Source of the DNA: Alphaproteobacteria bacterium
GTDB taxonomy: Bacteria > Pseudomonadota > Alphaproteobacteria > UBA2966 > CAIVPW01
NCBI GenBank assembly: GCA_018658465.1
Contig: JABHVE010000155.1
Location: 1 to 37,338, forward strand
Direction: 5' to 3'
DNA length: 37,338 nt
The position numbers and the translations under genes are program-made. The notes beneath the pieces are model-generated. The model was not told the origin of the DNA. It did no database searches and saw only the letters and a program-made list of their open reading frames with translations. Shown piece after piece: positions 3,720 through 33,220 of this stretch. Each line of letters begins with the position of its first letter. Position 1 is the stretch's first letter.

Positions 3720-3730
3720 CGTGAACCCGG

Positions 3731-4420: not shown

Positions 4421-5135
4421 CTGATCTGTTGCCGAAATACAGGGCGCGGACCTGGGGGTCATTGTGGATTTCCTGGTAGGTGCCGGTGGCCAAGATTTTG
4501 CCCTTGGCCATGACGGTCACCGGACAATCCAGGCGTTCCAGAAACCCGGTGTCGTGCTCGATGACTAAAATAGTGGCGCCGTTTTCCCCTGCCATGGTGC
4601 GGATCAAATCGACCGTGGCCGCAGTCTCAAACGCCGTCATCCCGGCGGTTGGCTCATCCAGCAGCATCAATCGGGGGCGCGCGGCCAAGACCATGCCGAT
4701 TTCCAACCATTGGCGCTGGCCATGGGACAACACGCTGGCAAGGTCGCCTGTTTTGTCCGCCAAATGGACCCGGTCTGCCAAGTGGGATTGGGGGCGGGCA
4801 CCAGATCCCCAGCGATCCCCGGCAGCCCCGGCCAAATCCAGATTTTCGGCCACGGTCAGGTCCCCGAACACGCTGGGGACTTGGAATTTGCGGCCAACAC
4901 CTAAGCGCGCGATCCGGTGCGGTGCCTGGCCACCCAATTCGGTGCCATCCAAGGTGATCCGCCCGGCAGTCGCCCGCAGGGATCCACTTATTAGATTGAA
5001 CACTGTCGATTTGCCGCAGCCGTTGGGCCCCACCAAGGCGCGCAGTTCCCCTGCGGCCAGCCCCAAGTCCACGCCATCGACTGCCGCCACACCGCCAAAA
5101 TCTTTGTGGACGTTTTGCAAAGAAAGAAAAGGCAT
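4413..5135 (-). CDS. ABC transporter ATP-binding protein, LivG/UrtD type
   Basis: This first gene of the importer operon encodes 240 residues. Walker A is GPNGCGKST, Walker B is RLMLLDEPTAGM, and the H-loop is LVIEHDTGF. The signature is unusual: LSHGQRQWLEIGM replaces LSGGQ. That SHGQ-W form, together with GRKFQVPSVFGDLTVAENL, is typical of UrtD of urea importers rather than of generic LivG. It supports a urea/short-amide type transporter, although the call rests on remembered family patterns. The start is the ATG at 5135. The divergent binding-protein gene begins 115 nt away, so both promoters share that gap. Confidence 0.9.
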   Translation of the reverse strand: MPFLSLQNVHKDFGGVAAVDGVDLGLAAGELRALVGPNGCGKSTVFNLISGSLRATAGRITLDGTELGGQAPHRIARLGVGRKFQVPSVFGDLTVAENLDLAGAAGDRWGSGARPQSHLADRVHLADKTGDLASVLSHGQRQWLEIGMVLAARPRLMLLDEPTAGMTAFETAATVDLIRTMAGENGATILVIEHDTGFLERLDCPVTVMAKGKILATGTYQEIHNDPQVRALYFGNRSDA

Positions 5136-5250
5136 GGTCTTTCGGATTTGTAGTTGACGATGGGTAGCGCCGGGTAATTACACCGCGCTATAGTACTCGG
5201 ACGGCTTCGAGCGGTCGTCCAACCGCTTGCTTCGATAACGGTACCCTAAA

Positions 5251-7543: not shown

Positions 7544-7559
7544 AGGCATGCTCGTTGCG
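7544..7559 (+). promoter_or_regulatory. Candidate sigma-54 promoter of the flagellin gene
   Basis: AGGCATG-CTCG-TTGCG matches the -24/-12 consensus (TGGCACG-N4-TTGCW), with the invariant GG and GC exactly 10 bp apart. The predicted start near 7570 leaves a leader of about 35 nt before the ATG at 7605. Flagellin genes of alphaproteobacteria are commonly sigma-54 dependent. In the remainder of the 321-nt gap (7284-7604) I see no gene, only the direct repeats noted separately. Confidence 0.55.
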
Positions 7560-7604
7560 AGGGATATTGCGCACAAAGTCCTGGGAAGGTCCGAGGTCGA
7601 CCCT

Positions 7605-8438
7605 ATGGCGATGTCTATCAACACCAATGTCGGCGCAATGCTGGCCTTGCAAAATTTGAACAAAACCAACCGAGGTCTGGAACAGACCCAGTTGCGCGTC
7701 ACCACGGGTCTGCGGATCAATGGTCCCAAAGACGATGCTGCGACGTTCGCCATCGCCCAAAATATGCGCGGCGATATCGCCGGGATGACAGCGGTAAAAA
7801 CCAACCTCAGCCTGGGCCAATCTGTGGTCAACGTGGCGATCGACGCCGGTAAGGCCATCGAAGATCTGCTGATCGAAATGAAAGCCAAATCGGTCCAAGC
7901 CAGTCAGGCGGGCCTTGATACGGATTCCTACACTGCCCTGAACCAAGAATTCACGTCTTTGCGGGCGCAGATCGAGGCCATCGTCGCGTCAGCCGAATTC
8001 AACGGCAAGAATTTGATTAATTCGGCGGCAACAAATTTTGACGTTCTCAGCACGGTTGATGGCAGCACGATTACCATTACCAAGCAGGCCATCGACGCCA
8101 CGACCCTTACCATCCACACCGCCGCCCTCACCGACGCAACAGTCGCCGGTACGGCGCTCACCGCCATCAGTCAGGCCATTATCTCGGTATCTAACGCCCT
8201 GGCTTCCTTGGGTTCTTCGGCCAAACGGGTTGATATCCAAACCGAATTCACCGGCAAGCTGCAAGACATTCTGAAGCAAGGTGTCGGCAATTTGGTGGAT
8301 GCTGATCTGGCCGAAGAAAGCGCCAATTTGCAGGCCTTCCAGATCAAACAACAATTGGGCGTCCAGGCCCTGGCCATCGCCAATTCCGGGCCCCAGAGCA
8401 TTTTGGATCTGTTCTCCGCCCAGCCACTGCGTCTGTAA
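7605..8438 (+). CDS. Flagellin
   Basis: The filament subunit has about 277 residues. The start at 7605 (MAMSINTNVGAMLALQNLN) gives the standard flagellin N-terminus. An in-frame ATG at 7548 falls inside the candidate promoter and is rejected. The N-terminal D0/D1 helices carry TNVGAMLALQNL, RVTTGLRINGPKDDAA and AIAQNMRGDIAGM. The C-terminal D1/D0 part has NLVDADLAEESANLQAFQIKQQLGVQALAIAN, in which Asp-Leu-Ala-Glu-Glu and the final QALAIAN are typical. The variable centre (about residues 130-210) is short and Thr-rich, giving one of the smaller flagellins. It is a single-gene unit with its own promoter and a bidirectional terminator. No other flagellar export or hook genes are in the window apart from a FliL-like gene at 36322. 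Confidence 0.95.
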   Translation: MAMSINTNVGAMLALQNLNKTNRGLEQTQLRVTTGLRINGPKDDAATFAIAQNMRGDIAGMTAVKTNLSLGQSVVNVAIDAGKAIEDLLIEMKAKSVQASQAGLDTDSYTALNQEFTSLRAQIEAIVASAEFNGKNLINSAATNFDVLSTVDGSTITITKQAIDATTLTIHTAALTDATVAGTALTAISQAIISVSNALASLGSSAKRVDIQTEFTGKLQDILKQGVGNLVDADLAEESANLQAFQIKQQLGVQALAIANSGPQSILDLFSAQPLRL

Positions 8439-8512: not shown

Positions 8513-9526
8513 TTAGGCGCGGATCACCCGTTCCCGTCCATCGGCCAACGTCAGCAATGCCGTAACATTCCCGGCCTTGCGGGCAATGGCGTCGGCGCGA
8601 TCGGTGGGCGACACATATATCGCGGTGGATAACGCGTCCGCCACCGTGGCCCGGGGTGTAATCACCGACACGCCAAGATGCTGAAGCGCGCTGGTGCCCA
8701 TGCCGGGATTGAACAGATGGTGGAAACGCCCCGCCGTATCGAATTCGGTCCCATACCCGCCAGATGTCGCCACCGACATGTCGGTCAAATCAATGGTGCG
8801 ATCGGTGCGGTTAGGATTGGACGGATCTTTCAACGCCACCAGCCAGGGCCGACCGTTGGGATGGGTATCCAATGCCCGGGTTTCCCCCAAGGAAACCAAA
8901 ACGTTGGTGATGCCGTTGGCCCGCAACAGTTCCGAAACCTTGTCCGTGATGTAGCCTTGGGCAATGCCGTTCAGGGTTATTTCCATGCCCTTTTTGTCTA
9001 AGTTAATAAACAAGGGATTCACGTCGATGCGGCGGTAATCCACCAATTTTACAACATCGTCGATCTCGCCTTGGGCGGGACCCTTGGCGTCGCCTTTGTT
9101 GTTACGGAAATGCGCTGAATACAGCTTCCACAAAGGCTGAACACTGACGTCGAAGGCTCCGTCCGAAATGCTGCCAAAGCGCACTGCCTCGGTCATCAAG
9201 GTCAGCATATCCATGGACGGACGGGACAGGCGGCCATCGCGGTTCAATGCCGCCAATTCGCTACTCTCCAGGTGCAGGCTGAAAATAGCCTCTAATCGGC
9301 GCACTTCGGCCACCGCCAAATCAATGATGCGTTCCGCACCTTCGCGGCTGGGGTGGGCCAATGTCATGCTGGCCTGGGCACCAAGAGCGGCACCCTCCCA
9401 GGTATACAAATTCGCAGCCGCTGCCCCCGATTGGGTGGCGATACCAGCCAGGGGCAAGCCAGAGGCGGCGCCCATGATTGTGATCGCCCTGCGGCGGGAC
9501 ATTAGAGTGGTGTTTTTCAAGCCCAT
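8513..9526 (-). CDS. apbE: FAD:protein FMN transferase (ApbE family)
   Basis: The enzyme has about 337 residues. The start at 9526 (MGLKNTTLMSRRRAITIMG) is preferred because GGAG lies 7 nt upstream. SRRRAIT followed by an Ala/Gly-rich stretch is a twin-arginine signal, so the enzyme acts outside the cytoplasm. ApbE attaches FMN through a phosphoester bond to a Thr/Ser in FMN-binding domains. The family landmarks are GAQASMTL near the start, RLEAIFS, SDGAFDVSVQPLWKL, LNGIAQGYITDKV, VSLGETRALD, SVATSGGYGTEF, FHHLFNPGMG and TPRATVADALSTA. It is the last gene of the minus-strand operon. Its neighbour 60 nt upstream is a NosR-type protein with the FMN-acceptor motif, the obvious substrate. Confidence 0.93.
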   Translation of the reverse strand: MGLKNTTLMSRRRAITIMGAASGLPLAGIATQSGAAAANLYTWEGAALGAQASMTLAHPSREGAERIIDLAVAEVRRLEAIFSLHLESSELAALNRDGRLSRPSMDMLTLMTEAVRFGSISDGAFDVSVQPLWKLYSAHFRNNKGDAKGPAQGEIDDVVKLVDYRRIDVNPLFINLDKKGMEITLNGIAQGYITDKVSELLRANGITNVLVSLGETRALDTHPNGRPWLVALKDPSNPNRTDRTIDLTDMSVATSGGYGTEFDTAGRFHHLFNPGMGTSALQHLGVSVITPRATVADALSTAIYVSPTDRADAIARKAGNVTALLTLADGRERVIRA

Positions 9527-9552
9527 TTGAGTCTCCGATCTATCCATTCTAA

Positions 9553-9569
9553 ACCGGCTCCCCGCCGGT
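9553..9569. other. Small hairpin between the NosR-type and apbE genes
   Basis: ACCGGC (9553-9558) pairs with GCCGGT (9564-9569) around a 5-nt loop. On the transcribed minus strand only TTT follows, so it is a poor terminator. It may be a processing or stability element between two co-transcribed genes. Confidence 0.3.
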
Positions 9570-9586
9570 CGAAATATGTGCAGGCC

Positions 9587-11800
9587 TTATTCAGCCGGCT
9601 GTGGCACCAAGCCACCTGGGAATGTCTTACGCCCTGGCGCTTGGGCACTCTTTGGGGGCAAACCCCGTTCCCTGCGCTTTCGTTCCACGGCCAATGGCGG
9701 GCACCGTTGGTCGTCAAAATACTCCACTTGGCAATCCAAGCAATAGAAACACTCACTTTCGTCAATTCTGCCTGACGGCTCGATCGCCTGGAATTCGCAA
9801 GAAACTTCGCATAAATGGCAGCCGCCAGCGGTTTCGCCCTCGGGCGTCCCGCATTCGGGTTTACGCTTCAGGAACCGCACAAGATTGAACCGCCCCGCTG
9901 CGGCCAGCCCAGCGCCCAAGGGGCACAAGAACCGGCAATAAGCGCGCTCCATCACTAACCCGACGGCCAGCACCGCAACTGCGTACACGACAAACCAAAA
10001 CCCGCGATTTTGGAAATGGGAGGTAATGGCGGTCTTAAACGGTTCCACTTCGACCGCACCCACCATCACCTCGGGCGAGAAAAACGCCAAAGGCACCAGG
10101 GCGGCAAACACCACATATTTCAACGGCCAAAGTTTTTTGTGGGTTTCGCGGGAAACCTGAAATTGCGGGATCCGAAAAAGTTTGGCGATGCGTGCCAAAA
10201 ATTCCTGCAAGGCGCCAAACGGGCACAGCCACCCGCAAAACAGCGAGCGACCCCAAATGAATAACGAAAACACGGTGTACCCGGCGACGATGACGATCAG
10301 GGGCTCCACCATGTAGGACGTCCAAGCCAAGTCCCTAAACGGAGCTTGGAGATACACCAGAACATTGATCATCGACAATTGGGCGTTGGCGTACCAACCC
10401 AGCCAACCCAGGGTAAACGCCAAAAACCCAAGGCGAATGAATTTGTATGCGTAGCGGTGGCGAGAGATTGCGTCTTGTTTGATCAACATGATGGTGAGGA
10501 TGATCAAAGCCACCGCCAAAACTGCCACGTCGATTTGCTGGTCGATCCACGCCTGAACCCAAATCGGTCGGGCATCCGACGACGACAACGCGCCCATGGC
10601 CATTTCTTCTTCTTCCAGACCCAAAATGTGCCGAGCGGGCAACTGGTACGCCACTTCGAAGGGGATGGTGATGGCGGCATCATCAGCCGTGCCGTGGACC
10701 AGAACCTGGATCATGAACGGCGCCAAGGGATCAAATAGGGGGTCATCAACCCCGAACACCCCGGCTTGGTTTAGAACCTTTCCTTCGCGGCCCTGACCGG
10801 TTTCCAGGCGGCCCTTGTATTTGTATTGGTCCCCGTGGAAATAAATGACGTTGCCATTTTGGACAATCTGCACCCGGTCAAAGCGTTTTTGGTTGGCCGC
10901 GTGGCGATAGGCTTCGCCTTTGAAATCGTATTCGCCAACACCGGCCAGAATGAACATTTGATCGGCGAACTCGCGGCTGAAATTTTCGTATTCTTTTTGC
11001 CGCAGAATATTTTGGCCAATGGAAGCAGGCGTCGCCAGTGCGGCAAAAAATTCTAGGAACGTGCCATCGGGATCTTCGCCCAAGGGGATATCCGGCCGGG
11101 CTTCGTTGTATCCGGCCAAGGCAAAAGCTTCGGCAACATCGCGGTTGGTCAGGGACAAACGCACCATGGAACCGCCGCTAATCAAATCTTCCCATGCCAA
11201 GGCTTCGAACCCGGTGCGGTCCACGGTTGGCGGACCGACGTACACATCGCCACGGGTGCGAATGACCACCCGAGCGCCCAAAATTACCGCGTCACGCATT
11301 AGGCCCGCGGAAATGGTCGCCCCCTGGGTGACATTGGGTTGCAGGGCCGCCGTGTAGCGGTTCCAGATGTGAACCGTGTTGAGCTGGGCCAGATACCGTT
11401 CAAGGCGGGATTGCGGCACCCCGTGGCCAATGATGGGCTCGGAATGGCTCAGCAGCATCGCCGCGCCCGTCACTTGGCCGGTGTTGGTGAAGCCAGCCAC
11501 CACATCAAACGGTGAACCGGCGTAGCCGCCGTAATTCCCAACCTGCTTGGTGGAAATCAGGTAGCCCACTTGTTCGCCATCAACAAAAACCGGGATCGCC
11601 AGGGGTCTGCCTTCCGGTTCCCCCAAGGTGATTTCCTCGCCGGGCCAAACCTGGGCCAAAAATTCGGGGGTAAGCAGATCTTTGACGTCATCCACCCAAT
11701 TTGCTTGGGCGGCGGGCACAGTAAACAGCGTCCCGGCCACGGCCATAACCAGCCCGACCGCGATGTTCCGCATGGCACGCAGTACCAAATTCGCTGGCAT
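9587..11800 (-). CDS. NosR/NirI-type membrane protein: FMN-binding domain, polytopic core, polyferredoxin tail
   Basis: The protein has about 737 residues from the ATG at 11800; 11773 is an alternative that starts right at the signal peptide MRNIAVGLVMAVAG. A periplasmic FMN_bind domain (about residues 70-190) contains NVTQGATISAG, with Thr162 in the GAT position as the expected covalent FMN attachment site. About five membrane helices follow, containing the paired CGWLCPFGAL and CRFLCPLGAG motifs. A C-terminal Fe-S region has CHLCEVSC and CFYCLDCQ, with DQRCPP completing the second cluster. This is the full NosR architecture, known to move electrons between the quinone pool and the periplasm in N2O reduction. 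Here its neighbours are ApbE and quinoprotein-type ABC genes and no nosZ is visible, so a different electron-transfer partner is likely. Confidence 0.9.
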   Translation of the reverse strand: MPANLVLRAMRNIAVGLVMAVAGTLFTVPAAQANWVDDVKDLLTPEFLAQVWPGEEITLGEPEGRPLAIPVFVDGEQVGYLISTKQVGNYGGYAGSPFDVVAGFTNTGQVTGAAMLLSHSEPIIGHGVPQSRLERYLAQLNTVHIWNRYTAALQPNVTQGATISAGLMRDAVILGARVVIRTRGDVYVGPPTVDRTGFEALAWEDLISGGSMVRLSLTNRDVAEAFALAGYNEARPDIPLGEDPDGTFLEFFAALATPASIGQNILRQKEYENFSREFADQMFILAGVGEYDFKGEAYRHAANQKRFDRVQIVQNGNVIYFHGDQYKYKGRLETGQGREGKVLNQAGVFGVDDPLFDPLAPFMIQVLVHGTADDAAITIPFEVAYQLPARHILGLEEEEMAMGALSSSDARPIWVQAWIDQQIDVAVLAVALIILTIMLIKQDAISRHRYAYKFIRLGFLAFTLGWLGWYANAQLSMINVLVYLQAPFRDLAWTSYMVEPLIVIVAGYTVFSLFIWGRSLFCGWLCPFGALQEFLARIAKLFRIPQFQVSRETHKKLWPLKYVVFAALVPLAFFSPEVMVGAVEVEPFKTAITSHFQNRGFWFVVYAVAVLAVGLVMERAYCRFLCPLGAGLAAAGRFNLVRFLKRKPECGTPEGETAGGCHLCEVSCEFQAIEPSGRIDESECFYCLDCQVEYFDDQRCPPLAVERKRRERGLPPKSAQAPGRKTFPGGLVPQPAE

Positions 11801-11811
11801 CACCCTGCCCC

Positions 11812-11840
11812 CAAAAATGCCGCCCACAACCACGGGCGGC
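11812..11840 (-). terminator. Terminator or attenuator just before the NosR-type gene
   Basis: On the minus strand GCCGCCC-GTGGTTGT-GGGCGGC is followed by ATTTTT, the form of an intrinsic terminator (stem 11840-11834 with 11825-11819, U-run 11818-11813). It ends only about 12 nt before the ATG at 11800, so the downstream genes can be expressed only by read-through or anti-termination, or if the hairpin is weak in vivo. Confidence 0.6.
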
Positions 11841-11938: not shown

Positions 11939-12862
11939 TTACCCGGCTGGCGGGCCCCCGGCAGGCTTGCCCGTGCGCTTCAACATGCCCCGTTGTGGGT
12001 CATATCCGATGGCGGCAACGATGAAAAATACCAGTGCGAACGCCAGCACGATCCCGAACGAAAGGAAATTGAATTTGCCGTATGCGGCATATCGGATCAG
12101 TTCGATCGTGTGAGTGAATGGATTTACCTGGGCGATCCAATAAATATATTCCGCCCCTTGTTCACGCAATTTCCACAAGGGGTACAGAGCCGGAGAGATA
12201 AAGAACATTGGGAAAATCACAAAGTTCATGGTGCCGGCAAAGTTTTCGAGCTGGCGAATGTAGACCGACAGCAGAAGCCCCAAGGCCGACAACATCAAGC
12301 CGCCGCCGATCAACGGCGGCAAAATATAGAGCCAGCCCGTGGCCGGAATGCGCACACCCAAATAGGGAACGACAAAGCTGACGGCGAACACAATCAGCAA
12401 GAAAACATAGGATTGGGCAACTGCCAGGAACGTCGCGGAAAGCAGCTTGAACAACAGCAAAACCCAGCGCGGAAGCGGCGCCGTTAGCAGCAAGCGCATG
12501 ATTCCCATTTCCCGGTCATAGACCATGGAAAGGGACGATTGCATGCCATAGAACAGCAAAACGATCCCCAGCAGCCCAGGCAAAATGTATTCCTGGTAGG
12601 TCACATAGGTTTCGTACGGGGGCACGATGGACACCCCCAACAGAGACCGAAATCCGGCGGCAAAAACGATCAGCCACAACAACGGCCGCACCAGGGCAGA
12701 TGCCCAGCGACCCTTTTGGCGAACAAATTTTCCGACTTCCCGTCGGGTGATGGCAGCCAGAGCAAGCCCAAGATGGGTCATCGTGCCGGCCCGCAAGGCT
12801 TGGCGTGGTGGCGCGGCACCGTCCAACGTTTCGGTGCGCTCTGCTGTTGTTTGCACTGTCAT
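11939..12862 (-). CDS. ABC-2 type permease of the PQQ-alcohol-dehydrogenase-associated ABC system (PedC-like)
   Basis: The integral membrane protein has 307 residues, with start at 12862 and AGAGG 7 nt upstream. After a cytoplasmic N-terminus it has six hydrophobic segments in the ABC-2 arrangement: RPLLWLIVFAAGF, the periplasmic TYVTYQEYILPGLLGIVLLFYGMQ region, MGIMRLLLTAPLPRW as the cytoplasmic coupling loop, then FLLIVFAVSFV, LMLSALGLLLSV and PMFFISPALYPLW. This pattern matches permeases found beside PQQ-dependent alcohol dehydrogenases (PedC family). In Pseudomonas putida the PedA1A2BC system was linked to lanthanide-dependent growth. Its ATPase partner is at 18943-19695, in the other half of the locus. 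Whether it imports or exports is not settled by sequence. Confidence 0.85.
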   Translation of the reverse strand: MTVQTTAERTETLDGAAPPRQALRAGTMTHLGLALAAITRREVGKFVRQKGRWASALVRPLLWLIVFAAGFRSLLGVSIVPPYETYVTYQEYILPGLLGIVLLFYGMQSSLSMVYDREMGIMRLLLTAPLPRWVLLLFKLLSATFLAVAQSYVFLLIVFAVSFVVPYLGVRIPATGWLYILPPLIGGGLMLSALGLLLSVYIRQLENFAGTMNFVIFPMFFISPALYPLWKLREQGAEYIYWIAQVNPFTHTIELIRYAAYGKFNFLSFGIVLAFALVFFIVAAIGYDPQRGMLKRTGKPAGGPPAG

Positions 12863-12910: not shown

Positions 12911-14152
12911 CTAAAACACGCACTTGTTTTCGGGTTCGTCGATTCCCAGGGTGTCCAGATCGTTAACCGCGTGCTCGAACTTGTCGATCGGCGCCCGGGC
13001 GATCACGGCATTGTTAACACTGACCAACAGGTTTTGACGAAGCTGATTGTTCCACGGGCGGAAATCCGACTGGAAACCTTTGTAGGTATCCATATTCAGC
13101 TCTTCATTTTGGATAACCTCGCGAATCGCCTGAAACTCCAAAGACTCAGCCCGGATCGATGCCTGGGTAATGGCTTTTACCGCCGCCCACGCCGACCAAT
13201 CTGGTCCGGTCATAAAGCGGTCGGCGGAACGGAAAAACCGACCGTTCAATTGCGGTGCGCCGTGGCGTTCGAAGGTCCATTGCCAGGCCTCGGCCATCAG
13301 CCCCGATGTGCCCACCACTGGCCGTGGGCGCACGGTCTGATACGGCACATAGCGACCGAACTCGCCGTCGGTATCGGCGATGAACACCACGTCGTAGTCG
13401 CGGCGGCCAGAGGTCATCAAGCGAATGTTGTTTTGCTCGCGTTCCCGTGGGTCGTTGCTGAGAACGAAATCACGAATATCGACGACGGAGGCACCGTTGC
13501 GCTTGGCAGACCGCTCCAGTGCGGCGACCATTTCTGCGTCATCGGGCAGGGGGCCTTTCAGCACCAACAGTCTGGTCCAATCTTGGAAAATCAAATATTG
13601 GGTCAGGGCGTCCATCAGCATGTTGTAGCTGGGGGCCGTATGCATCAGATGGGACGCGCAATTTTCGATGCGCAGGGAATCTGAAGAATTGTTCACATTG
13701 AACAACAATATGTCTGAATCCTTGGTGGCCTCGGTCAAGGCTTCGATCACCGGGGTTTCAGCGTCTACCAGGAAAAAGCTGATGCCTTCTTCATCCCGCT
13801 GACGGAACAGTTCCGCAATCAGCGCGTCGGCATCCACTCCACGAAAGGGCACCAGTTCATAATCCGTCCCCAAAAACCTGCCCGTGGATTGGGCATCCAA
13901 AATGCCTTGCTGGGCCCCGGGCAGCGGCCGGAACCGCGGCACCGCCGGAATACGGGCATACACGAACGCGCGCACGTAGCGAATATCGTCTTCAATATCC
14001 AAATAGCCGATTTTCAGGGGGACGATTTCGGTTTCCTGAGCATCCGCCAGTCCCGGGGTCATGACCACAGACGCCGTGATAAGCCCCGCAAGGGCCAAGA
14101 TCGCTCCAACCAGGAACGCCCGCATACCCAAACCTTTGACCCAGTTCATCAT
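12911..14152 (-). CDS. Periplasmic substrate-binding-like protein of the PQQ-ADH ABC system
   Basis: The protein has 413 residues, with start at 14152 or 14149. It has a signal peptide (RAFLVGAILALAGLITA, cleavage near ADAQ). The mature part starts PLKIGYLDIEDDIRY and has the two-lobed type I binding-protein fold, with LLFNVNNSSDSLRI, LVLKGPLPDDAEMV and YDVVFIADTDGEF. It ends near a single Cys (ENKCVF). The D-I-R-Y start and RPLPGAQQGI segment are characteristic of the binding protein found in PQQ-dependent alcohol dehydrogenase ABC clusters (PedA1/LutA type). Those homologues are implicated in lanthanide acquisition. It lies 17 nt after the propeller gene and 48 nt before the permease gene. 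Confidence 0.85.
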   Translation of the reverse strand: MMNWVKGLGMRAFLVGAILALAGLITASVVMTPGLADAQETEIVPLKIGYLDIEDDIRYVRAFVYARIPAVPRFRPLPGAQQGILDAQSTGRFLGTDYELVPFRGVDADALIAELFRQRDEEGISFFLVDAETPVIEALTEATKDSDILLFNVNNSSDSLRIENCASHLMHTAPSYNMLMDALTQYLIFQDWTRLLVLKGPLPDDAEMVAALERSAKRNGASVVDIRDFVLSNDPREREQNNIRLMTSGRRDYDVVFIADTDGEFGRYVPYQTVRPRPVVGTSGLMAEAWQWTFERHGAPQLNGRFFRSADRFMTGPDWSAWAAVKAITQASIRAESLEFQAIREVIQNEELNMDTYKGFQSDFRPWNNQLRQNLLVSVNNAVIARAPIDKFEHAVNDLDTLGIDEPENKCVF

Positions 14153-14169: not shown

Positions 14170-15216
14170 CTATTCGTCCAACAGGACTTGGTACGGGATG
14201 CGCCCCGTGGGAATGGACTTGGTCACTTTTCTAGCCGCGATATCGACCACGGAAACATCATCCGACAGGCCATTGGCCACAAACAACGTTGATTCGTCAG
14301 CGGACAGCGTCACGTTCCAAGCACGGGATCCAACCAGCACATAAAATTCGATTTCGCGGGTCGCCACGTCCACAAAGGCCACGTGGTTCGCCCGGCCAAG
14401 GCTGACGTACGCCGTTTTACCGTCAGCAGTTAGCACAAGCCCCACCGGGGTCACATCCACCTGGCGGAAGCCCGGCGGCAAGAAGTTGATGACTTCGGTC
14501 ACTTTGAAGGTCTCAACATCGATGATGTAAATTTCCCCGGACAGCTCGGCTGACACCCACAATTCTTTTTTGTCGGGAGTCATGCGGATGCGCCGGGGCC
14601 GTGTGCCAACGATCACGTTCGCGGTAATGATGCCCTGGTCCACATCAATGCGGTGGATCATGTCGGCAACTTCCGACGTCAAATACAGGGTCTTGCCGTC
14701 ATCGGTGATGAACACCCCTTCCGGTTCCGCGCCTGTGGGCACTTCGTGCAACAGCACCTTTTCGGCCAGATCGATGATCCACAACGAAGAATCTTCTTCG
14801 TTGGCGATAAACATCAGGCGCTCGTCTGGGGTGATTTCCAGCACTTCGGGGCTAGGGCCTGTGGGGATGGCATCCACCACCTCCAGCAGTTCGGCATCAA
14901 TTACGTCGACCACGTCTTCGTCGCCGCACGCCACGTACAGCAATGTTTTTGCCAAGTTGAAGACCATGCCCCGGGGCCGCCGAGAGGTTTTGATCTGCTT
15001 GATCACCTCTAGTGTGGTGATATCCAGCACCGTGACCGTGTGGCCTTTTTCGTTGCTGACAAACGCCAGGCCACGACCCGCCGCTGATGCCGGGCGGGTG
15101 GCCGCCAATGGCAACGCCGCCAAGGCCACCGCCGCGCCCATGCCCTTTAAGACTTTCCGCCGACCGGAAAACAGGACTTGGTCACCGACCTGGGGGATTT
15201 GTATTTTTGACTGCAT
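14170..15216 (-). CDS. YVTN/YncE-type beta-propeller, PQQ-dependent-catabolism-associated
   Basis: The protein has 348 residues. The start at 15216 is supported by AGGAGT 5 nt upstream. The N-terminus has a twin-arginine-like signal (SGRRKVLKGMGAAVALAAL, cleavage near ASAAG). Seven repeat blades follow, each with a pattern such as NEKGHTVTVLDITTLEV, GDEDVVDVIDAELLEV or NGLSDDVSVVDIAARKV, the YVTN propeller signature. No quinoprotein W-motif docking pattern is seen, so it is probably a binding or scaffold protein rather than an enzyme. The same type of propeller sits in the ABC clusters beside PQQ alcohol dehydrogenases. It is the second gene downstream of the sigma-54 promoter at 15766-15780. 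Confidence 0.88.
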   Translation of the reverse strand: MQSKIQIPQVGDQVLFSGRRKVLKGMGAAVALAALPLAATRPASAAGRGLAFVSNEKGHTVTVLDITTLEVIKQIKTSRRPRGMVFNLAKTLLYVACGDEDVVDVIDAELLEVVDAIPTGPSPEVLEITPDERLMFIANEEDSSLWIIDLAEKVLLHEVPTGAEPEGVFITDDGKTLYLTSEVADMIHRIDVDQGIITANVIVGTRPRRIRMTPDKKELWVSAELSGEIYIIDVETFKVTEVINFLPPGFRQVDVTPVGLVLTADGKTAYVSLGRANHVAFVDVATREIEFYVLVGSRAWNVTLSADESTLFVANGLSDDVSVVDIAARKVTKSIPTGRIPYQVLLDE

Positions 15217-15239: not shown

Positions 15240-15659
15240 TTAGCGGACGATAAAGGTTCCGACCATGCCGCGTTCTTTGTGGCCGTCGATGTAAAATTCA
15301 TAATTGCCGGGGCGGATGGGGACGAACCAAATCCTGACCTGGCCTTCGTCATCAAATTCCAGCCCGTACAGACCCATGGGCTTTACTTCCAATTCGCCGA
15401 TGGCGACTTGGTTGATCCACGAGTTGCGCCACAGGTCAGGTGCAAGAAGCAGAAATTCATCACCGCCCATGCTGGTGATATCCCAGCGGTAATATTTCCC
15501 GGTTTCCAGTTCGTATTCGTAGTTGGACATGCTCAGGTCCGGGTTCAGGGTCAGTTCCAACCCTGTCGGACGCGATGCCAAATTGCCCTCTGCCGAAGCC
15601 GGGCCAACAAACGCGAACAGGCCAAACACGGCCACAATCATTTTCAGTGAAATCTTCAT
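15240..15659 (-). CDS. Exported cupredoxin-like protein without the copper cysteine
   Basis: The protein has about 139 residues. The ATG at 15659 follows a strong GGGAGGGG site and opens a signal peptide (MKISLKMIVAVFGLFAFVG, cleavage near ASAEG). The C-terminal end, RPGNYEFYIDGHKERGMVGT, has the shape of the type 1 copper loop of plastocyanin-like proteins (Y-x-F-x-C-x-x-x-x-H-x-x-x-x-M). The His and Met are kept, but the Cys and its spacer are missing. Blue-copper electron transfer is therefore unlikely; the fold may bind another metal or a partner protein. It is the first gene after the sigma-54 promoter and precedes the beta-propeller gene by 23 nt, which ties it to the quinoprotein/ABC locus. 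Confidence 0.75.
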   Translation of the reverse strand: MKISLKMIVAVFGLFAFVGPASAEGNLASRPTGLELTLNPDLSMSNYEYELETGKYYRWDITSMGGDEFLLLAPDLWRNSWINQVAIGELEVKPMGLYGLEFDDEGQVRIWFVPIRPGNYEFYIDGHKERGMVGTFIVR

Positions 15660-15765
15660 ATCCCCTCCCACACATCTTGTTTTCAAACGTTTGCCTACAT
15701 TGAGTTTTCCAATGCTTGGCATTGCCTATGGACGCCATAGAGACAAACCTATCCCAAGCCATAGA

Positions 15766-15780
15766 GCAATATGTGTGCCA
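15766..15780 (-). promoter_or_regulatory. Sigma-54 (-24/-12) promoter of the cupredoxin/propeller/ABC operon
   Basis: Read on the minus strand the site is TGGCAC-ACATA-TTGC followed by T, matching the consensus at every conserved base, with GG and GC separated by 10 bp. Transcription would start near 15755, leaving a leader of about 95 nt before the ATG at 15659. It sits 165 nt downstream of the stop codon of the NtrC-type activator gene. Confidence 0.85.
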
Positions 15781-15944: not shown

Positions 15945-17396
15945 CTATCCGTCGCGAAAATCCGACGCTCTGAGCCCATGTTTTTCGATCCGATAGCGCA
16001 ACGCCATGCGGGTGACCCCCAAGGCCCGCGCCGCCTCCGACGCATTGCCTCGTGCCCCACGAAGGGCTCCTGTGATCAATTGCCGCTCCGCATCGTCCAG
16101 GGTGCTACCGCCAACGGCCTGCTCCCCAGGATCGCCGTCGTGGGATGCTTTTTGAGGTTGGGCGCCCATCGCCGACTGGGACAAGGCGAGGGAATCTGCT
16201 GCCACCACCGTCCCGGGGGTCAACAGCACCGCTCGTTCGATCACATTGCGCAGTTCCCGCACATTCCCTGGCCAGTCGTATTGTTCCATGGCGTCCAGCG
16301 CTTCCGCCCCCAATTCAGGAGCATCGCGGCCGTACGACCGTGCGGTAGTCGCCAAGAAATGCCGCGCCAAAAGCGGCAGATCGCCCCGGCATTCCCGCAA
16401 CGACGGCATTGCCACGGACAACACGTTGAGGCGGAAATACAAATCGTCGCGAAATTCGTCCCGAGCCACCATGGCCTTTAGATCCCGGTTGGTGGCGGCA
16501 ATAAACCGCGCCTGAACCGGGCTTTCCCGGGTGCTGCCCACCCGGCGGACTTGGCGGCGTTCCAACACGTTCAGCAGCTTGGCTTGCAAGGCTATGGGTA
16601 ATTCGCCGATTTCATCCAAAAACAGCGTGCCGTCTTCGGCGGCTTCGATCAAACCGGCCCGGGACGCGTGGGCGGAAGTGAACGCACCGCGCACGTGGCC
16701 GAATAATTCAGCCTCGATCATGTCTTTTGGCAAGGACGCACAATCCACCTGGACGAACGGCCGGTCCGGCCTTGGCCCCATGCTGTGCAGTAACCGCGCC
16801 GCCACATCTTTGCCCGTGCCGGTTTCGCCTTGGATCAACACCGTGGGCGGCGGCGTCCCACCAACGCTGGCGATGGTTTCGATCTGGGACCGCACTGCGG
16901 AAATTGCCGGGGAGTTCCCCAAAAATGTTTGCGGTACTGCGGACCGATTTTCTCGGGCCTTGGAAAAATTGAGCCGGGATCTCAGCTTTTGCGAATCCAT
17001 CACCTTGTCCACGGTGACCAAAAGCTCATCCAGATCCAACGGCTTGCGCAGGTAGTCGGCGGCCCCCAATTTCATCGCGTCGACCGCTTGGCCGATGTCC
17101 CCATAAGCCGTGACAACGATCACCGGCGGCGCGGCATCCCCCGCTCCGGTGATGTCAGGGAGCAGATCAAGGCCATCACCATCGGGCAACCGCATGTCCA
17201 GGATGACCAAATCCGGCGGATCTTTGATTTGTTCACGGGCCATTGCCAGGGACGTTGCCACCACGCAGGTATTTCCGGCGCGCACCAAACACGTCGCCAC
17301 CGCCCGGGCAAACACGTCTTCGTCGTCCACCACCAGAATGGACCAACTGGGAGCATTTTCAGCCCCCGGGTTGGGGAGTTCAGCCGGGTCGGTCAC
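15945..17396 (-). CDS. NtrC-family sigma-54-dependent response regulator
   Basis: The protein has 483 residues from a GTG at 17396 that overlaps the kinase stop by 4 nt. It has a receiver domain (about 18-130) with phospho-acceptor Asp67 in LVILDMRLPDG and acidic residues DDE at 24-26. The AAA+ domain (about 155-390) has Walker A GETGTGKD (190-197), Walker B TLFLDEIGEL, and a sigma-54-contact loop reading GAFTSA (237-242) in place of GAFTGA. The C-terminal Fis-type helix-turn-helix (about 440-478) has GNASEAARALGVTRMALRYRI. It should activate sigma-54 promoters when phosphorylated by the adjacent kinase. The perfect -24/-12 promoter directly downstream is the likely target. Confidence 0.95.
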   Translation of the reverse strand: MTDPAELPNPGAENAPSWSILVVDDEDVFARAVATCLVRAGNTCVVATSLAMAREQIKDPPDLVILDMRLPDGDGLDLLPDITGAGDAAPPVIVVTAYGDIGQAVDAMKLGAADYLRKPLDLDELLVTVDKVMDSQKLRSRLNFSKARENRSAVPQTFLGNSPAISAVRSQIETIASVGGTPPPTVLIQGETGTGKDVAARLLHSMGPRPDRPFVQVDCASLPKDMIEAELFGHVRGAFTSAHASRAGLIEAAEDGTLFLDEIGELPIALQAKLLNVLERRQVRRVGSTRESPVQARFIAATNRDLKAMVARDEFRDDLYFRLNVLSVAMPSLRECRGDLPLLARHFLATTARSYGRDAPELGAEALDAMEQYDWPGNVRELRNVIERAVLLTPGTVVAADSLALSQSAMGAQPQKASHDGDPGEQAVGGSTLDDAERQLITGALRGARGNASEAARALGVTRMALRYRIEKHGLRASDFRDG

Positions 17397-18865
17397 GCTG
17401 CGCTCCGTTCTGCTTTGCTAGCGGGCAAGGTGATGATGACTTCGGTACCGCCGTGCGCGCCAGGTTCAAAATCAACCGTGCCATGGTGCAAATCACAAAT
17501 TTTGAATGCGAACGGGATCCCCAATCCGCTGCCAAAGCTTTTTGTGGTGGGCCCGGGGCTTAGTTCCCCGGGTGCCGGACGGAATGGCATACCCGGACCC
17601 TGATCGGCGATGACCAACTGCACCAAATTTTCCGGGGTCTTTATGGACACGGAAATCACGCCATTGTCCGGCGATGCCTCGATGGCGTTCGACAACAATC
17701 CGACCACGGCCTGTTCCATCAAATGGATATCCACGGTCACTTCCGATACCCCATCCCAACCAATGCGTTCGACGGCAAGGGATTTCCCGTCTATGCGAGG
17801 TGCCAACAAATCAATGGCGGTCGCCGCAACGTCGGCCAAGGGCACGTGGCTGCGCGCCAGTCGCAGGGGATTCAAATAGGACAACAGGGAAGATAGCCAC
17901 TGTTCCAAGCGATCCACAGTGACGCGAATGTCCTTCAAGCCTTGGGCGACATCCGGGGCAACATCTGAGCTGTCATGGACCTGGGCGGTGGCGCGAATGC
18001 TGGCCAACGGATTGCGGATGTTGTGGGCGACAACGGGAACCAGTGACCCAAGGGCTGCTTGTTTTTCCGACCGCACCAAGGCTTCCCGGCTTAGGGCCAA
18101 ATCGTCCGACATTCGGTTGACCGCACGCTGCAATGTTACCAGCTCCGTGGCGCCGGATTCCTTCACCTTGTGATCCAGGCGACCCTGGCCAAACGCCGCG
18201 ACCCCCGCCAGCAATGCATTCACCGGGCGCACGAACGCCTGTTGAACAAATACCCGGGAAACCAACAACAAGCCCCCAGCCAAGGCGATTGGGATCAACA
18301 AGATCAGGCTGGCGGTGCGGCTTAGCCGGGCAACCCTGTCTTCCTCGGCACCCTGAGCGATGGACATCAATTCGTCGTTGGCGGCGAATACCCGTTCATA
18401 ATCTGCCAACCACACCATTTCCAAATCGGCAGTGAAAAACACCGTGAGGTGATCGGCTTCGCGAAACGCGCTGGACGGCGTGGTCATAATCAAATCGGTT
18501 TGCTGGCGCACTTGTTCAAACGCCAACTGCAAGCCTTCGATGGCGGCGGCTTCCGCCGGGTGAACAGCCACTGCTTCCATTTTTGCGAAGTTCGCGGCGA
18601 TGCGGCTGCCGGTCGCACGGTATTCTGTGGCTGCCCGTGGTGCCGCCAAAAAATGATGGTCGAAAACTTCGGTCATCTGGCGGTAAACGTCACCGCGGGT
18701 TTCTTGAACCAAGTTGACCAGGGAGCTAAGGCGTTGGGATTCTTCCGCTGCCCGTTGGCGCAGCTCCACCCCCAACAGACCCATCGCCCCGGTGACAACG
18801 ATCAGCAACAAAAATGCCAGATTGTGGCCCAGCAACAATCCCTTCATGGAATAGATGCGGAACAC
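17393..18865 (-). CDS. Membrane sensor histidine kinase
   Basis: The protein has 490 residues from a GTG at 18865 (AGTAGG 8 nt upstream); an ATG at 18847 is an alternative. One membrane helix (about 11-31) and a second (about 186-205) flank a helical periplasmic sensor domain of about 150 residues. A HAMP linker (about 206-260) follows. The dimerisation/phospho-acceptor part has His281 in VVAHNIRNPLASIRA, and the ATPase domain has the N-box LLSNAIEASP, G1 ADQGPGMP and G2 GSGLGIPFA. Next to the His the usual acidic residue is Asn (H-N-x-x-N). It pairs with the NtrC-type regulator. Its ligand is unknown, but context suggests an alcohol, a metal or redox state in the periplasm. Confidence 0.93.
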   Translation of the reverse strand: MFRIYSMKGLLLGHNLAFLLLIVVTGAMGLLGVELRQRAAEESQRLSSLVNLVQETRGDVYRQMTEVFDHHFLAAPRAATEYRATGSRIAANFAKMEAVAVHPAEAAAIEGLQLAFEQVRQQTDLIMTTPSSAFREADHLTVFFTADLEMVWLADYERVFAANDELMSIAQGAEEDRVARLSRTASLILLIPIALAGGLLLVSRVFVQQAFVRPVNALLAGVAAFGQGRLDHKVKESGATELVTLQRAVNRMSDDLALSREALVRSEKQAALGSLVPVVAHNIRNPLASIRATAQVHDSSDVAPDVAQGLKDIRVTVDRLEQWLSSLLSYLNPLRLARSHVPLADVAATAIDLLAPRIDGKSLAVERIGWDGVSEVTVDIHLMEQAVVGLLSNAIEASPDNGVISVSIKTPENLVQLVIADQGPGMPFRPAPGELSPGPTTKSFGSGLGIPFAFKICDLHHGTVDFEPGAHGGTEVIITLPASKAERSAA

Positions 18866-18942: not shown

Positions 18943-19695
18943 CTAAGCCACTTCCTCTTTGTCCGGGTCGGTCAACTTCAAGAACGCTTCGCTCAAATTT
19001 TCGACACCTTGCTGTTCGATCAGGGTATCGATTGGCCCGTCGTTCAAGATGTTCCCGTGATGCAGGATTACCACCCGGTTCGCGGTCTTTGCTTCGTCCA
19101 CCAAGTGGGTGGCCCACAGCACGGCGAGATTGCGATCACGGCGTAACACTTCGACGGATTCCAAAATGTCTTGGCGGCTGCGATGATCCAATCCCACGGT
19201 GGGTTCGTCCATCAACAAAATTTTGGGTTCATGCAACAACGCCCGGGCTAATTCAACCCGGCGCTTGTTGCCCCCCGACAACGTGCGCACGGCCTGCTTG
19301 GATTTACCACCAAGGCCGATGCGTTCAAGTTCTTCGTCGATGCGCCGCTGGGCTACCTTTGCCGGGACCCCATGCAAATCCGTGTGAAAGCGCAAATTCG
19401 CATTGATCGACAGTTCGGGATCCAACGTTGGCGTTTGAAAGACGATCCCAAGGCCACCCAGGGCCGGAACAGAATTCACCGCCAAGTCATGACCATCCAC
19501 AATGATTTGACCCTCGTCCGCCACAAACAGGCCGGTCAAAAGCTGAAACAACGTGGATTTACCGGCACCGTTCGGCCCCAACAAAATTACGAACTCGCCG
19601 GGATCGACCCGCAAGTTGATGCCATTCAAGGCGCGCGTGGCACCATATGATTTCACGACATTGATCACGTTCAGAGCGGCTTGGGACTCTGCCAT
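18943..19695 (-). CDS. ABC transporter ATP-binding protein, PQQ-ADH-associated (PedB-like)
   Basis: The 250-residue ATPase has Walker A GPNGAGKST, signature LSGGNKRR (N replacing Q), Walker B KILLMDEPTVGL and H-loop LWATHLVDE. The sequence follows the ABC-2 exporter-type ATPases with a DHRSRQ stretch after Walker B, matching the ATPase found with PQQ alcohol dehydrogenase ABC systems. It is not next to its permease (11939-12862). The two-component genes and the sigma-54 promoter lie between them, so ATPase and permease would come from separate transcripts. The start is 5 nt after the stop of the NitT-type ATPase gene, suggesting one transcript from the importer through to the regulators. Confidence 0.9.
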   Translation of the reverse strand: MAESQAALNVINVVKSYGATRALNGINLRVDPGEFVILLGPNGAGKSTLFQLLTGLFVADEGQIIVDGHDLAVNSVPALGGLGIVFQTPTLDPELSINANLRFHTDLHGVPAKVAQRRIDEELERIGLGGKSKQAVRTLSGGNKRRVELARALLHEPKILLMDEPTVGLDHRSRQDILESVEVLRRDRNLAVLWATHLVDEAKTANRVVILHHGNILNDGPIDTLIEQQGVENLSEAFLKLTDPDKEEVA

Positions 19696-23288: not shown

Positions 23289-23296
23289 AGCGGTGC

Positions 23297-27398: not shown

Positions 27399-27603
27399 CC
27401 ACATTCTCCTTTTGCCCACTATATACGATCAAGATTGGCGAAGCGAAAGATGGCCAATGTGAAATTCGCCCACAAAGCTGTGACCCACGGGGATTCCGCT
27501 GGATTCGCCTTGGCAGGCGGCGGGCGCCAAATTATACTTCGGCCACATTTTTCGATATGAATCACGGAGAACGCGCCAAGTGATCCGGCCAGTTGAGGGT
27601 AAA

Positions 27604-28143
27604 ATGAATAAAATCTTGAGAATTCTGACGATTTCAGCATTTGCGCTGTCCGGTTCGGTCCCATTGATGGCGATTGCCGGTGCCGCATCATTTTTGGTGG
27701 CAATTCCGACCGTTGCGGTTGCCCAAGACGAGCCCAGGAACATTTCCCGGGGACGGGAAATTTTTCGCGACAAGGCAAAATGCGTCTGGTGTCACGGCTG
27801 GGACGGCCGCGGATCGCAATCTGACATGGGCTTTGGCCCCTCCCTGCGTGAGTCCTTCCTGGATTATGAAGGGGCAGTGGAGGTGATCAAATGCGGGCGC
27901 ATCGGCAGAGAAATGCCTGCCCATGATCAGCGCGCCTATGACGACGGTCGCTGTTACGGAATTACCAAAGCAGACCTGACACCCGAGGAAACGCCTACAC
28001 CCGGGTTGGCGAATCTACGCCAAAGTGAGATTGAAAGTGTGGCAGCGTTCTTGGTGGAGTGGGTGTTCCAAAAGGAACTGACCCTGGATTATTGCGTTCG
28101 CTTCTACAGCGAAACCGCTGTTATTTGCGAAGAGTTCAAATAA
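27604..28143 (+). CDS. Periplasmic monohaem cytochrome c, PQQ-ADH-cluster type (copy 1)
   Basis: The protein has 179 residues. The ATG at 27604 follows GAGGG; an in-frame ATG at 27580 is less likely. The signal peptide ends near VAVAQ. Haem is bound at CVWCH (60-64), and Met104 in REMPAHD is the probable sixth ligand. Extra Cys at 97, 117, 164 and 175 are conserved in the other two copies and would form two disulfides. The protein should carry electrons from a periplasmic dehydrogenase; the PQQ alcohol dehydrogenase at 31370 is the obvious donor. It is followed by two strong hairpins before the next copy. Confidence 0.88.
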   Translation: MNKILRILTISAFALSGSVPLMAIAGAASFLVAIPTVAVAQDEPRNISRGREIFRDKAKCVWCHGWDGRGSQSDMGFGPSLRESFLDYEGAVEVIKCGRIGREMPAHDQRAYDDGRCYGITKADLTPEETPTPGLANLRQSEIESVAAFLVEWVFQKELTLDYCVRFYSETAVICEEFK

Positions 28144-31369: not shown

Positions 31370-33220
31370 TTAAAGCGTGAAGACGAACACGGCGTGCATG
31401 AACTGGATGTTTGCCAGTTCAGGCCACGTGTTCCGGTTACCACCGGAAACGTCACCGCCAACCATGATGGCGACATACTGCTTGCCGTCCACCGAGTAGC
31501 TCATCGGGGTCGCCTTAATCGGGGCACCCGTGCTGAACTTCCAGACTTCTTCCAGGGAGTCGCTGTCGTAAGCGACAACGTCACCATTCAGGTAACCAGT
31601 CATGACCCAACCACCTGCGGCGGCGAGCATTCCTGCACGGTTACCATAACGGACCTGGATTTTCTTGACGGTCGCACCGGTGCGGACGTCGATGGCCACC
31701 ACTGAACCGGATTCGGTCATGGTACCAACTTCGTCTTCACCGAACTCACGACCAGTCAGCGCGTTCATGCCGACCATGTCATCCATGGTGATGCCGAAGC
31801 GACCACCAGTCCAGCTGTCACGAGGTTTCACAGCGCCACCCTTGTTGATCGGGTGATCAGCCTGGTTTGTACCAGCCAGCTGGCAACCTTCGATGCCTGG
31901 GACATACATGATGCCACGGACAGGATCGGTTGCAGACGGAGGCCAGTTCTTACCACCGGAAATCCGCGGGCAGTGAATGCCGATGCGGCCATCGCGACGG
32001 GTTGCCGTTCCACGATAATCCTGCAACGCCGTGTTGGGGTTGTAGGAAGTGGGCAGGCCAGTTTTGGGATCGATGCCTTCAGTCCAGATGACATCGTTCA
32101 CATACTGTTGGGCATAAAGGAATTCGCCAGTGGCGCGATCGAAGCCATAGGAGAAGCCATTACGACCGGGGTGATAAACGATCTTACGCATTGTTCCGCC
32201 GATCTCGACGTCGATCAACGGATGCTCCGCAATTTCGTCATAATCGAACGGATCGTTCGGTGTGTACTGGAAGTACCATTTGATGTCGCCGGTATCCGGG
32301 TCCATCGCCAGGAGGCTGTCCGTGTACAGATTGTCGCCAGGACGATACTCGGGATCCCAGTCAGGACCAGGGTTACCAGTACCCCAATACATCATGTTCA
32401 GAGCATCATCGTAGGTGCCCGTCTGCCAGATGGAACCACCGCCGGTTTCCCAAGCGTTGTAATCATCCAACCATGTGGACTTGGCGATTTCGTTCGGATC
32501 GCTGTCGTTACCACCGGCGGTGTGTGTCCGCCACATGGCGGTACCGTCGTTCAGGTTGGTGCCATCGAGCCAGCCGCGAACACCATATTCGGCGCCGGCA
32601 ACACCGACGACGCTGATGTCACGAATGATCAACGGAGCATGGGTAAAGGTTTCAGCGATCGACGGGTCAGCAATGGTGCGTTCCCAATTCACTTCGCCGG
32701 AATCTTTGTCCATCGAGATCATACGACCGTCAAGGGTGATCGAAATGATGTCGTTGCCCCAGAAAACCACGCCACGGTTGTTGTTGCCGCAGCAAGCCAC
32801 TTCAGCAGCCCAGACACGGTCAGTCGCGGGGTCCATCTGCCAAACGATTTCGGAAGAGTTACCAGACCGAACATCGACCTTGTAAACAGTCCCCCAACCG
32901 TTGGGATAGTACATGAAACCATCTTCAACAACCGGTGTGCCTTCCAAGCGGCCAGCACGACGAGCGCCAGCAGCTTCGATGCCGCCAACAGCAATGGTGA
33001 AAGCGAGCTTCATGCCACCGATGTTGCCAGTGTTGATCTGAGCGTCGGACATATAACGATGTCCGAAATAGTTCTTATGGTGATGGATCCAGTTTTGTGG
33101 CTCAGCTTCGACATTTAACAGCCGTTGCATTGTCATTTCGGCCGCGTTGGCCGGAAGAGCCATGGCAACTGCCGCAATGGCAGCGCCAACGATGGCTCCT
33201 GCTTTGGTAAACGTATGCAT
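31370..33220 (-). CDS. PQQ-dependent alcohol (methanol-type) dehydrogenase with lanthanide signature
   Basis: The periplasmic quinoprotein has 616 residues and oxidises alcohols with PQQ and passes electrons to cytochrome c. The start at 33220 follows GGAGGAG; signal cleavage is near ANAAE. Eight-bladed propeller features include the vicinal disulfide Cys143-Cys144 in EVACCGNN, metal ligand Glu211 in GAEYGVRG, Asn283 in WGTGNPGP and catalytic Asp326 in NDPFDYDE. Asp328, two residues later, is the extra acidic ligand found in XoxF/ExaF-type lanthanide enzymes; calcium enzymes of the MxaF type have Ala there. Length and single-domain form (no fused haem) fit type I enzymes. The protein has its own sigma-70-like promoter and terminator. 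It is XoxF-like but I did not assign a clade. Confidence 0.93.
   Translation of the reverse strand: MHTFTKAGAIVGAAIAAVAMALPANAAEMTMQRLLNVEAEPQNWIHHHKNYFGHRYMSDAQINTGNIGGMKLAFTIAVGGIEAAGARRAGRLEGTPVVEDGFMYYPNGWGTVYKVDVRSGNSSEIVWQMDPATDRVWAAEVACCGNNNRGVVFWGNDIISITLDGRMISMDKDSGEVNWERTIADPSIAETFTHAPLIIRDISVVGVAGAEYGVRGWLDGTNLNDGTAMWRTHTAGGNDSDPNEIAKSTWLDDYNAWETGGGSIWQTGTYDDALNMMYWGTGNPGPDWDPEYRPGDNLYTDSLLAMDPDTGDIKWYFQYTPNDPFDYDEIAEHPLIDVEIGGTMRKIVYHPGRNGFSYGFDRATGEFLYAQQYVNDVIWTEGIDPKTGLPTSYNPNTALQDYRGTATRRDGRIGIHCPRISGGKNWPPSATDPVRGIMYVPGIEGCQLAGTNQADHPINKGGAVKPRDSWTGGRFGITMDDMVGMNALTGREFGEDEVGTMTESGSVVAIDVRTGATVKKIQVRYGNRAGMLAAAGGWVMTGYLNGDVVAYDSDSLEEVWKFSTGAPIKATPMSYSVDGKQYVAIMVGGDVSGGNRNTWPELANIQFMHAVFVFTL

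Follow-up and report, generated by a model that had tools for sequence, protein, structure and literature searches.

Several described systems resemble the locus studied here, a NosR-type gene and the adjacent apbE in a stretch of 37,338 nucleotides (contig JABHVE010000155.1, hereafter the window) of the alphaproteobacterial metagenome-assembled genome (MAG) GCA_018658465.1. NosR, which has NosX/ApbE and an ATP-binding cassette (ABC)-2 type transporter in its operon, shares the whole architecture of the window protein, with its flavin mononucleotide (FMN) acceptor threonine, its CxxxCP pairs and its two ferredoxin clusters. NirI has the same architecture, and several nirS-linked members also adjoin ApbE. 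PceC and RdhC of organohalide respiration have, like the window protein, an FMN domain and a NapH-like membrane part. Flavinylated NapH/NosR-type proteins associated with alcohol dehydrogenases were reported in 2021 from genome surveys (172 genomes), and there, as in the window, a NosR/NapH-type protein, flavinylation genes and a pyrroloquinoline quinone (PQQ) alcohol dehydrogenase, there of the exaA type, occur in one context (PMC8238504). Finally, PedA1A2BC (PMC6839425) and LutA/E/F (PMC7391723) are lanthanide uptake systems needed both for uptake and for growth at low concentrations of lanthanide ions (Ln3+).

We propose that the window protein has the build of NosR without its role in the reduction of nitrous oxide (N2O), and that it is probably a transmembrane electron carrier for periplasmic lanthanide/PQQ dehydrogenases, most likely working inward. 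The reasons for such a carrier, and for inward flow as the likelier direction, are its architecture, the dehydrogenases that neighbor its relatives and the fusion of some of them to cytochrome c. Its setting in a Ped/Lut operon, together with the lack of detectable nosZ in the family, suggests that it probably transfers electrons for alcohol oxidation instead. The elements of the operon and its surroundings, read from the DNA itself, are the following:

8513..9547, minus strand: ApbE, flavin adenine dinucleotide:protein FMN transferase (PF02424, 205 bits), the sole ApbE of the window's genome
9587..11800, minus strand: NosR-type transmembrane flavo-iron-sulfur protein, 737 residues; the reading frame is open to a GTG at 11833
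11939..12862, minus strand: ABC-2 permease of the PedC/LutF type (TIGR03861, 338 bits, above the cut-off of 241)
12911..14152, minus strand: periplasmic substrate-binding protein of the PedA1/LutA type (TIGR03863, 391 bits, slightly below the cut-off of 414)
14170..15216, minus strand: YVTN beta-propeller protein of the PedA2 type (TIGR03866, 327 bits, above the cut-off of 287)
15240..15722, minus strand: small exported cupredoxin-like protein without the type-1 copper cysteine
15765..15780, minus strand: perfect sigma-54 -24/-12 core, TGGCACACATATTGCT, 0 mismatches
15945..17396, minus strand: NtrC-family sigma-54-dependent response regulator (Response_reg, Sigma54_activat, HTH_8)
17393..18865, minus strand: sensor histidine kinase (HAMP, HisKA, HATPase_c)
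18943..19695, minus strand: ABC ATPase of the PedB/LutE type (TIGR03864, 314 bits, above the cut-off of 302)
22399-19701, minus strand: ABC transporter of the NMT1/taurine type, upstream of the PedB-type ATPase

The start of the NosR-type gene was placed at the ATG at 11800, which is preceded by a GGGGGCAGGG box, in preference to the GTG at 11833. The encoded protein consists of a periplasmic FMN domain, a transmembrane part with two CxxxCP motifs and a C-terminal domain with two [4Fe-4S] clusters. The initial annotation of the window had claimed a complete NosR architecture with ApbE as its immediate neighbor, and both claims are borne out: we found the predicted FMN acceptor Thr162 (the T of QGATIS, numbered from the ATG), the two CxxxCP motifs (C522/C526 and C622/C626) and all eight ferredoxin cysteines (650, 661, 664, 668 and 684, 687, 690, 700), and the neighboring gene at 8513-9547 is recognized by PF02424. 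The protein thus has what defines the NosR type, namely an FMN domain with a threonine or serine acceptor, CxxxCP pairs and two [4Fe-4S] motifs. It equally matches the description of a NapH-like flavinylated carrier, being a PF12801 membrane iron-sulfur protein with an FMN domain and with ApbE in its cluster. Each of the twelve motif cysteines is missing from no more than one of the 36 proteins of the clade described below. The first ferredoxin motif is atypical and differs from that of NosR, since C-x10-C replaces C-x3-C, an insertion found only in the window protein and its ortholog L033. The NCBIfam model TransRegNosR matches the protein over its full length (497 bits, E 5.6e-149), which is about half of the equivalog cut-off of 1000 bits. 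Its FMN domain matches RnfG structures (E 1e-5). The AlphaFold2 model has a mean predicted local distance difference test score (pLDDT) of 71 and a predicted template modeling score (pTM) of 0.56; a fold search with this model returned RnfG alone, weakly (E 7e-3), and nothing at E 0.001. We predict that Thr162 carries covalent FMN. Between the permease and the NosR genes, a terminator-like hairpin with a T run at 11840-11819 overlaps the GTG start of the NosR reading frame, and the NosR and ApbE genes may therefore be attenuated.

The initial annotation had noted the lack of nosZ in the window, which stands and extends to the rest of the genome: the model TIGR04244 finds nosZ neither in the window nor elsewhere in the window's genome. 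In two genomes of the same taxonomic order, used as controls (G010 and G011), nosZ is found at about 1100 bits. The search across the order revealed none in the eight genomes of the window's family, except for one stray match of 18.7 bits in G002, and none was found in G042, G188, G264 or the genomes of the families f77 and f126 that carry NosR-type proteins. The lactonase-type NosZ (L-NosZ) model gave weak matches in the window's genome (best 54.9 bits for a cut-off of 700). We rejected a hidden L-NosZ, because these far lower matches are all to YVTN-type beta-propellers, and also a NosZ split between the propeller and its cupredoxin-like neighbor, because the former scores above the cut-off of the PQQ_ABC family and the latter lacks the copper cysteine. 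The nos_propeller model (PF18764) was dropped as a probe since it matched no control genome. As for other partners, nirS is lacking in the window (the rest of the window's genome was not searched for it), and no reductive dehalogenase was seen in the window, where no dedicated test was made. The window's genome is 94.9% complete, which leaves some room for a true NosR whose nosZ is missing solely because the MAG is incomplete. We consider this highly improbable, given that nosZ is absent from all eight family genomes and yet detected in the control relatives, that the protein scores half of the NosR cut-off and that it belongs to a separate clade.

This clade emerged from a tree of 93 proteins and 710 columns, among which there is no PceC/RdhC sequence. 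The window protein falls in a group of 36 rows (Shimodaira-Hasegawa-like approximate likelihood ratio test, SH-aLRT, 99), apart from the nosZ-linked NosR that the initial annotation had suggested for comparison and from the nirS-linked NirI, which lie on other branches. Neither result that the initial annotation had named as a refutation, a nosZ cluster elsewhere in the genome or grouping with the NosR partners of NosZ, was obtained. The group holds the window protein, all the family paralogs used, proteins of f77, f126 and f6, and some named MAGs. No member has nosZ or nirS as a neighbor. The nirS, nirF and nirJ neighbors were located by tblastn, and pqqE matches near NirI genes were discarded as nirJ.

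The neighbors of the clade members are of another kind. PQQ dehydrogenases lie beside eight of them (L034, L037, L038, L039, L044, L046, L126, L185), and when Ped-type ABC genes are included the list extends to ten loci, with the addition of L033 and L047. Molybdenum enzymes also occur, of the sulfite dehydrogenase type beside L170, with the same cluster in L185, and of the aldehyde oxidase type beside L081, with the same cluster in L041 and L082. Cytochromes c are also found among the neighbors, and some paralogs (L039, L044, L047) have them together with a thioredoxin-like CxxC protein. In f77, a single open reading frame of about 1160-1190 residues has a cytochrome c and a NapH-like module fused to an entire NosR, and is followed by a lanthanide-type PQQ dehydrogenase. 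These fusions are at L060:94-3588, L061:1483-5037 and L063:1-3567. In L185, the fusion gene lies downstream of a gene of the molybdopterin oxidoreductase cluster and upstream of a lanthanide-type PQQ dehydrogenase. PedC was identified in 9 of the 10 tree-placed clade genomes of a sample of 385 genomes, and in 57 of the 385 overall; since the clade genomes come from only four families, the comparison is descriptive rather than a test.

The operon is what further distinguishes the window protein from NosR. On the minus strand, the genes follow in the order NMT1/taurine ABC, PedB-type ATPase, histidine kinase, NtrC-type regulator, cupredoxin-like protein, PedA2, PedA1, PedC, NosR and ApbE. The last six form a unit with intergenic gaps of 17 to 138 bases, which the NosR-type and ApbE genes close. 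The sigma-54 core lies 42 bases upstream of the cupredoxin-like gene, directly behind the gene of the NtrC-type regulator, and a perfect core is expected by chance 0.06 times per window. All four Ped subunit types are recognized, three of them above the cut-off, and these family-level scores for permease, ATPase, substrate-binding protein and YVTN propeller liken the locus to PedA1A2BC and Lut. It differs from them in having the ATPase split from the other subunits by the histidine kinase and the regulator, and in the additional cupredoxin-like subunit, NosR-type protein and ApbE. Homologs of the cupredoxin-like protein occur in Ped operons of the window's family, Ciceribacter and Thioclava, and the homolog of Thioclava is devoid of the Cys, His and Met of the type-1 copper site.

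This organization is partly conserved. The locus L033, of genus g4, has the cupredoxin-like protein, propeller, substrate-binding protein, permease, NosR and ApbE in the operon at 54-71% identity. Perfect or one-mismatch sigma-54 cores precede the operon unit, at the same place as in the window, in G001, G004, G005, G006 and G007 (loci L033, L208, L213, L214 and L215), so that with the window all six mapped family operons have one. In L033, the stretch that separates the sigma-54 site from the cupredoxin-like gene contains several direct repeats (GCGGCTCGCAAATC...) at about 2560-2700. Genera g2 and g3 (L208, L213, L214, L215) have two copies of the latter gene, in most of these loci each with a sigma-54-like core before it. 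ApbE is the last gene of the Ped-type operon in all six mapped family loci, and a single full ApbE match was obtained per genome in all eight members of the family (G003 adds a fragment of 27 bits). NosR-type matches number 3-6 per genome, including some fragments at contig ends. Flavin attachment is therefore tied to the operon, and the single ApbE presumably serves all NosR paralogs of the cell.

The NosR-type gene is less constant: it stands between permease and ApbE in two of the six mapped loci, those of the window's genome and of G007. G001, G004, G005 and G006 lack it at this place, and in the first three of these genomes a NosR paralog is found further upstream in the same region. The flavin transferase is thus the constant part of the operon, and the adjoining NosR copies are the variable one. 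One could then regard NosR as a lodger, in an operon to which ApbE belongs, with this copy serving a molybdenum or other dehydrogenase encoded elsewhere, and the molybdenum dehydrogenases that adjoin other clade members are in line with this. Such an arrangement seems unlikely to us, since the gene order is shared by genera g1 and g4 at the identities given above and since the links to PQQ and Ped genes recur in a second group of NosR-type proteins (see below).

The metal imported by the window operon is probably a lanthanide, by analogy with the characterized Ped and Lut relatives (PMC6839425, PMC7391723). The window's genome encodes four PQQ dehydrogenases, and all of them have the additional Asp typical of the lanthanide type. 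It also encodes pqqE. The window itself contains one of these dehydrogenases and two cytochromes c that match each other at 70%:

27580..28143, plus strand: c-type cytochrome near the quinoprotein (Cytochrom_C), with a homologous second copy at 28285-28806
31370..33220, minus strand: PQQ-dependent dehydrogenase, nearest solved structure XoxF (6dam)

The dehydrogenase has a vicinal CysCys and the lanthanide-type Asp (FDYD), two residues past the catalytic Asp. The initial annotation had attached the NosR-type gene to a quinoprotein ABC operon. This holds in part, as the gene is directly attached to the Ped/Lut ABC operon, but the quinoprotein (31370-33220) is about 20 kb away. Two roles had been suggested in that annotation. 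The passage of electrons to or from the periplasmic quinoprotein and cytochrome pool is the best-supported reading, given the PQQ and molybdenum dehydrogenases and cytochromes c near clade members and the cytochrome c fusions. The upkeep of the redox state of a transporter component fares less well, since we recognized no redox center in the substrate-binding, beta-propeller and cupredoxin-like subunits and since NosR is not a fixed part of the operon.

In the mechanism that we favor, Thr162, on the periplasmic side, would receive its FMN from ApbE, and electrons would pass between this flavin, the CxxxCP region in the membrane and the two [4Fe-4S] clusters on the cytoplasmic side. The carrier would serve lanthanide-type PQQ dehydrogenases and their Ped/Lut ABC uptake system. 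It would most likely accept electrons from these enzymes or from the cytochromes c that serve them, and pass them on to the quinone pool or the cytoplasm. The sigma-54 promoter and the adjacent NtrC-type pair may switch on the uptake system, the carrier and the flavin transferase together. Electron flow from an alcohol oxidase via NapH-like flavoproteins has been proposed before (PMC8238504).

The adjacent regulators also allow another interpretation, in which the NosR-type protein would sense redox conditions in the periplasmic quinoprotein system and signal them to the NtrC-type pair, in keeping with the earlier idea that NosR and NirI are regulators. NosR affects the transcription of nosZ (PMC7660919), the histidine kinase, the response regulator and the sigma-54 site are next to the operon, and the other NosR paralogs of the window's genome adjoin histidine kinase genes. 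Nevertheless, every redox motif is intact, including both ferredoxin clusters, no DNA-binding or signaling domain was found in the protein, and family operons without NosR have the histidine kinase and the response regulator as well. This makes a sensor quite improbable.

Several observations weigh against the proposed carrier and its inward direction. PQQ is more oxidizing than typical FMN, and inward flow from the quinoprotein alone would therefore be uphill at the flavin. The window quinoprotein lies about 20 kb from NosR. The transporter does not require NosR, as four of the six mapped operons lack this gene between those of the permease and ApbE. The window's genome has two more NosR paralogs (G000:C12:17650-19788 and C38:1-1329, one truncated by a contig end), which adjoin histidine kinase and response regulator genes and no recognized dehydrogenases; the neighbors include an NMT1-PAS histidine kinase for one of them and histidine kinase, response regulator, Hpt and EAL genes for the other. 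The counts of co-location in the clade are small and come from related genomes. In the 385-genome sample of the class, NosR-type genes are found near PedC only in the window's family and in a few genomes of the second group. Finally, an outward function, towards N2O reductase, has been proposed for the characterized NosR (PMC7660919).

That proposal for NosR, directed towards NosZ, makes an outward carrier the natural counterpart. Low-potential electrons from quinol or the cytoplasm would be brought to the periplasm. They would be used there either for the quinoprotein/cytochrome system, in its activation or repair, or for a metal or thiol that is reduced in the course of uptake. The thioredoxin-like CxxC protein and cytochromes c near some paralogs would fit. 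However, no periplasmic reductase is recognized in the operon, and most of the redox neighbors recognized for clade members are dehydrogenases. Apart from Ce and Eu, lanthanides remain trivalent, which counts against the outward reduction of the metal. We thus consider this alternative rather unlikely, although it deserves more credit than the other ones discussed here, and inward flow is more likely than outward flow.

A second group of NosR-type proteins is linked to the same functions. In Rhodobacteraceae SC52, Pseudosulfitobacter, Phaeobacter gallaeciensis and Thioclava, proteins annotated as "4Fe-4S binding protein" are encoded directly before ApbE, near pqqABCDE, pedF, a substrate-binding protein, a YVTN propeller, an ABC permease or ATPase, or a PQQ dehydrogenase. 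Similar neighborhoods are found on plasmids of Ciceribacter and Variovorax and in the genomes G042 and G188, and the group thereby spans Rhodobacterales, Rhizobiaceae and Variovorax. The six plasmid proteins form a separate clade in the 93-protein tree, distant from that of the window. A single origin of all PQQ-linked NosR types was weakly rejected (approximately unbiased test of a joint clade, p 0.026), which weakly favors two origins. Hence, NosR-type proteins apparently became linked to the PQQ/Ped system on two occasions, in agreement with the statement that the links of NapH-like proteins with nirS and exaA evolved several times (PMC8238504). In Ciceribacter thiooxidans, the YVTN propeller and the cupredoxin-like protein are in one open reading frame (L166:14516-16147), a fusion or a lost stop.

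The rest of the window carries other genes. Of the three proteins encoded by a unit at 22701-24708, one weakly matches the MotA/ExbB type and the two others have no Pfam match; the unit is conserved beside a NosR paralog in L042 and L048, where its middle protein is 82% identical, the highest value among the proteins compared there. A branched-chain amino acid/urea-type ABC set, with the binding protein in the opposite orientation, lies at 1819-6447, and a flagellin gene at 7548-8438 adjoins ApbE.

Relative to the published set of flavinylated proteins (PMC8238504), the window pair closes a Ped/Lut ABC operon, is preceded by a sigma-54 site and belongs to a clade with expanded paralogs and cytochrome c fusions. 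The term "ABC transporter" never occurs in the text of that study, NosR, FMN and ApbE never occur in a 2026 article on the ped cluster (PMC12997753), and we found no paper combining 4Fe-4S, PQQ, FMN and lanthanide. For NosR and lanthanide together, the literature yielded, besides irrelevant hits, one article, on N2O-respiring methanotrophs (PMC11102522). The link of NosR-type proteins to a lanthanide ABC operon and to sigma-54 control therefore appears to be new, in a search that left most subscription papers aside.

With eight family genomes that carry 3-6 matches each and no detectable nosZ, the call of a NosR/NirI-type gene is not in itself evidence of N2O reduction. We tentatively suggest that, besides NosR and NirI, there may be a third physiological class of NosR-type proteins, which would link periplasmic lanthanide/PQQ and molybdenum dehydrogenases to the membrane, with flavin attachment encoded in a sigma-54-controlled lanthanide-uptake operon and with cytochrome c-NapH-NosR versions beside an XoxF-like enzyme. 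If true, this would provide a concrete second route for electrons out of lanthanide-dependent periplasmic alcohol dehydrogenases, besides cytochrome c, and one that could be tested in cultured marine Rhodobacterales.

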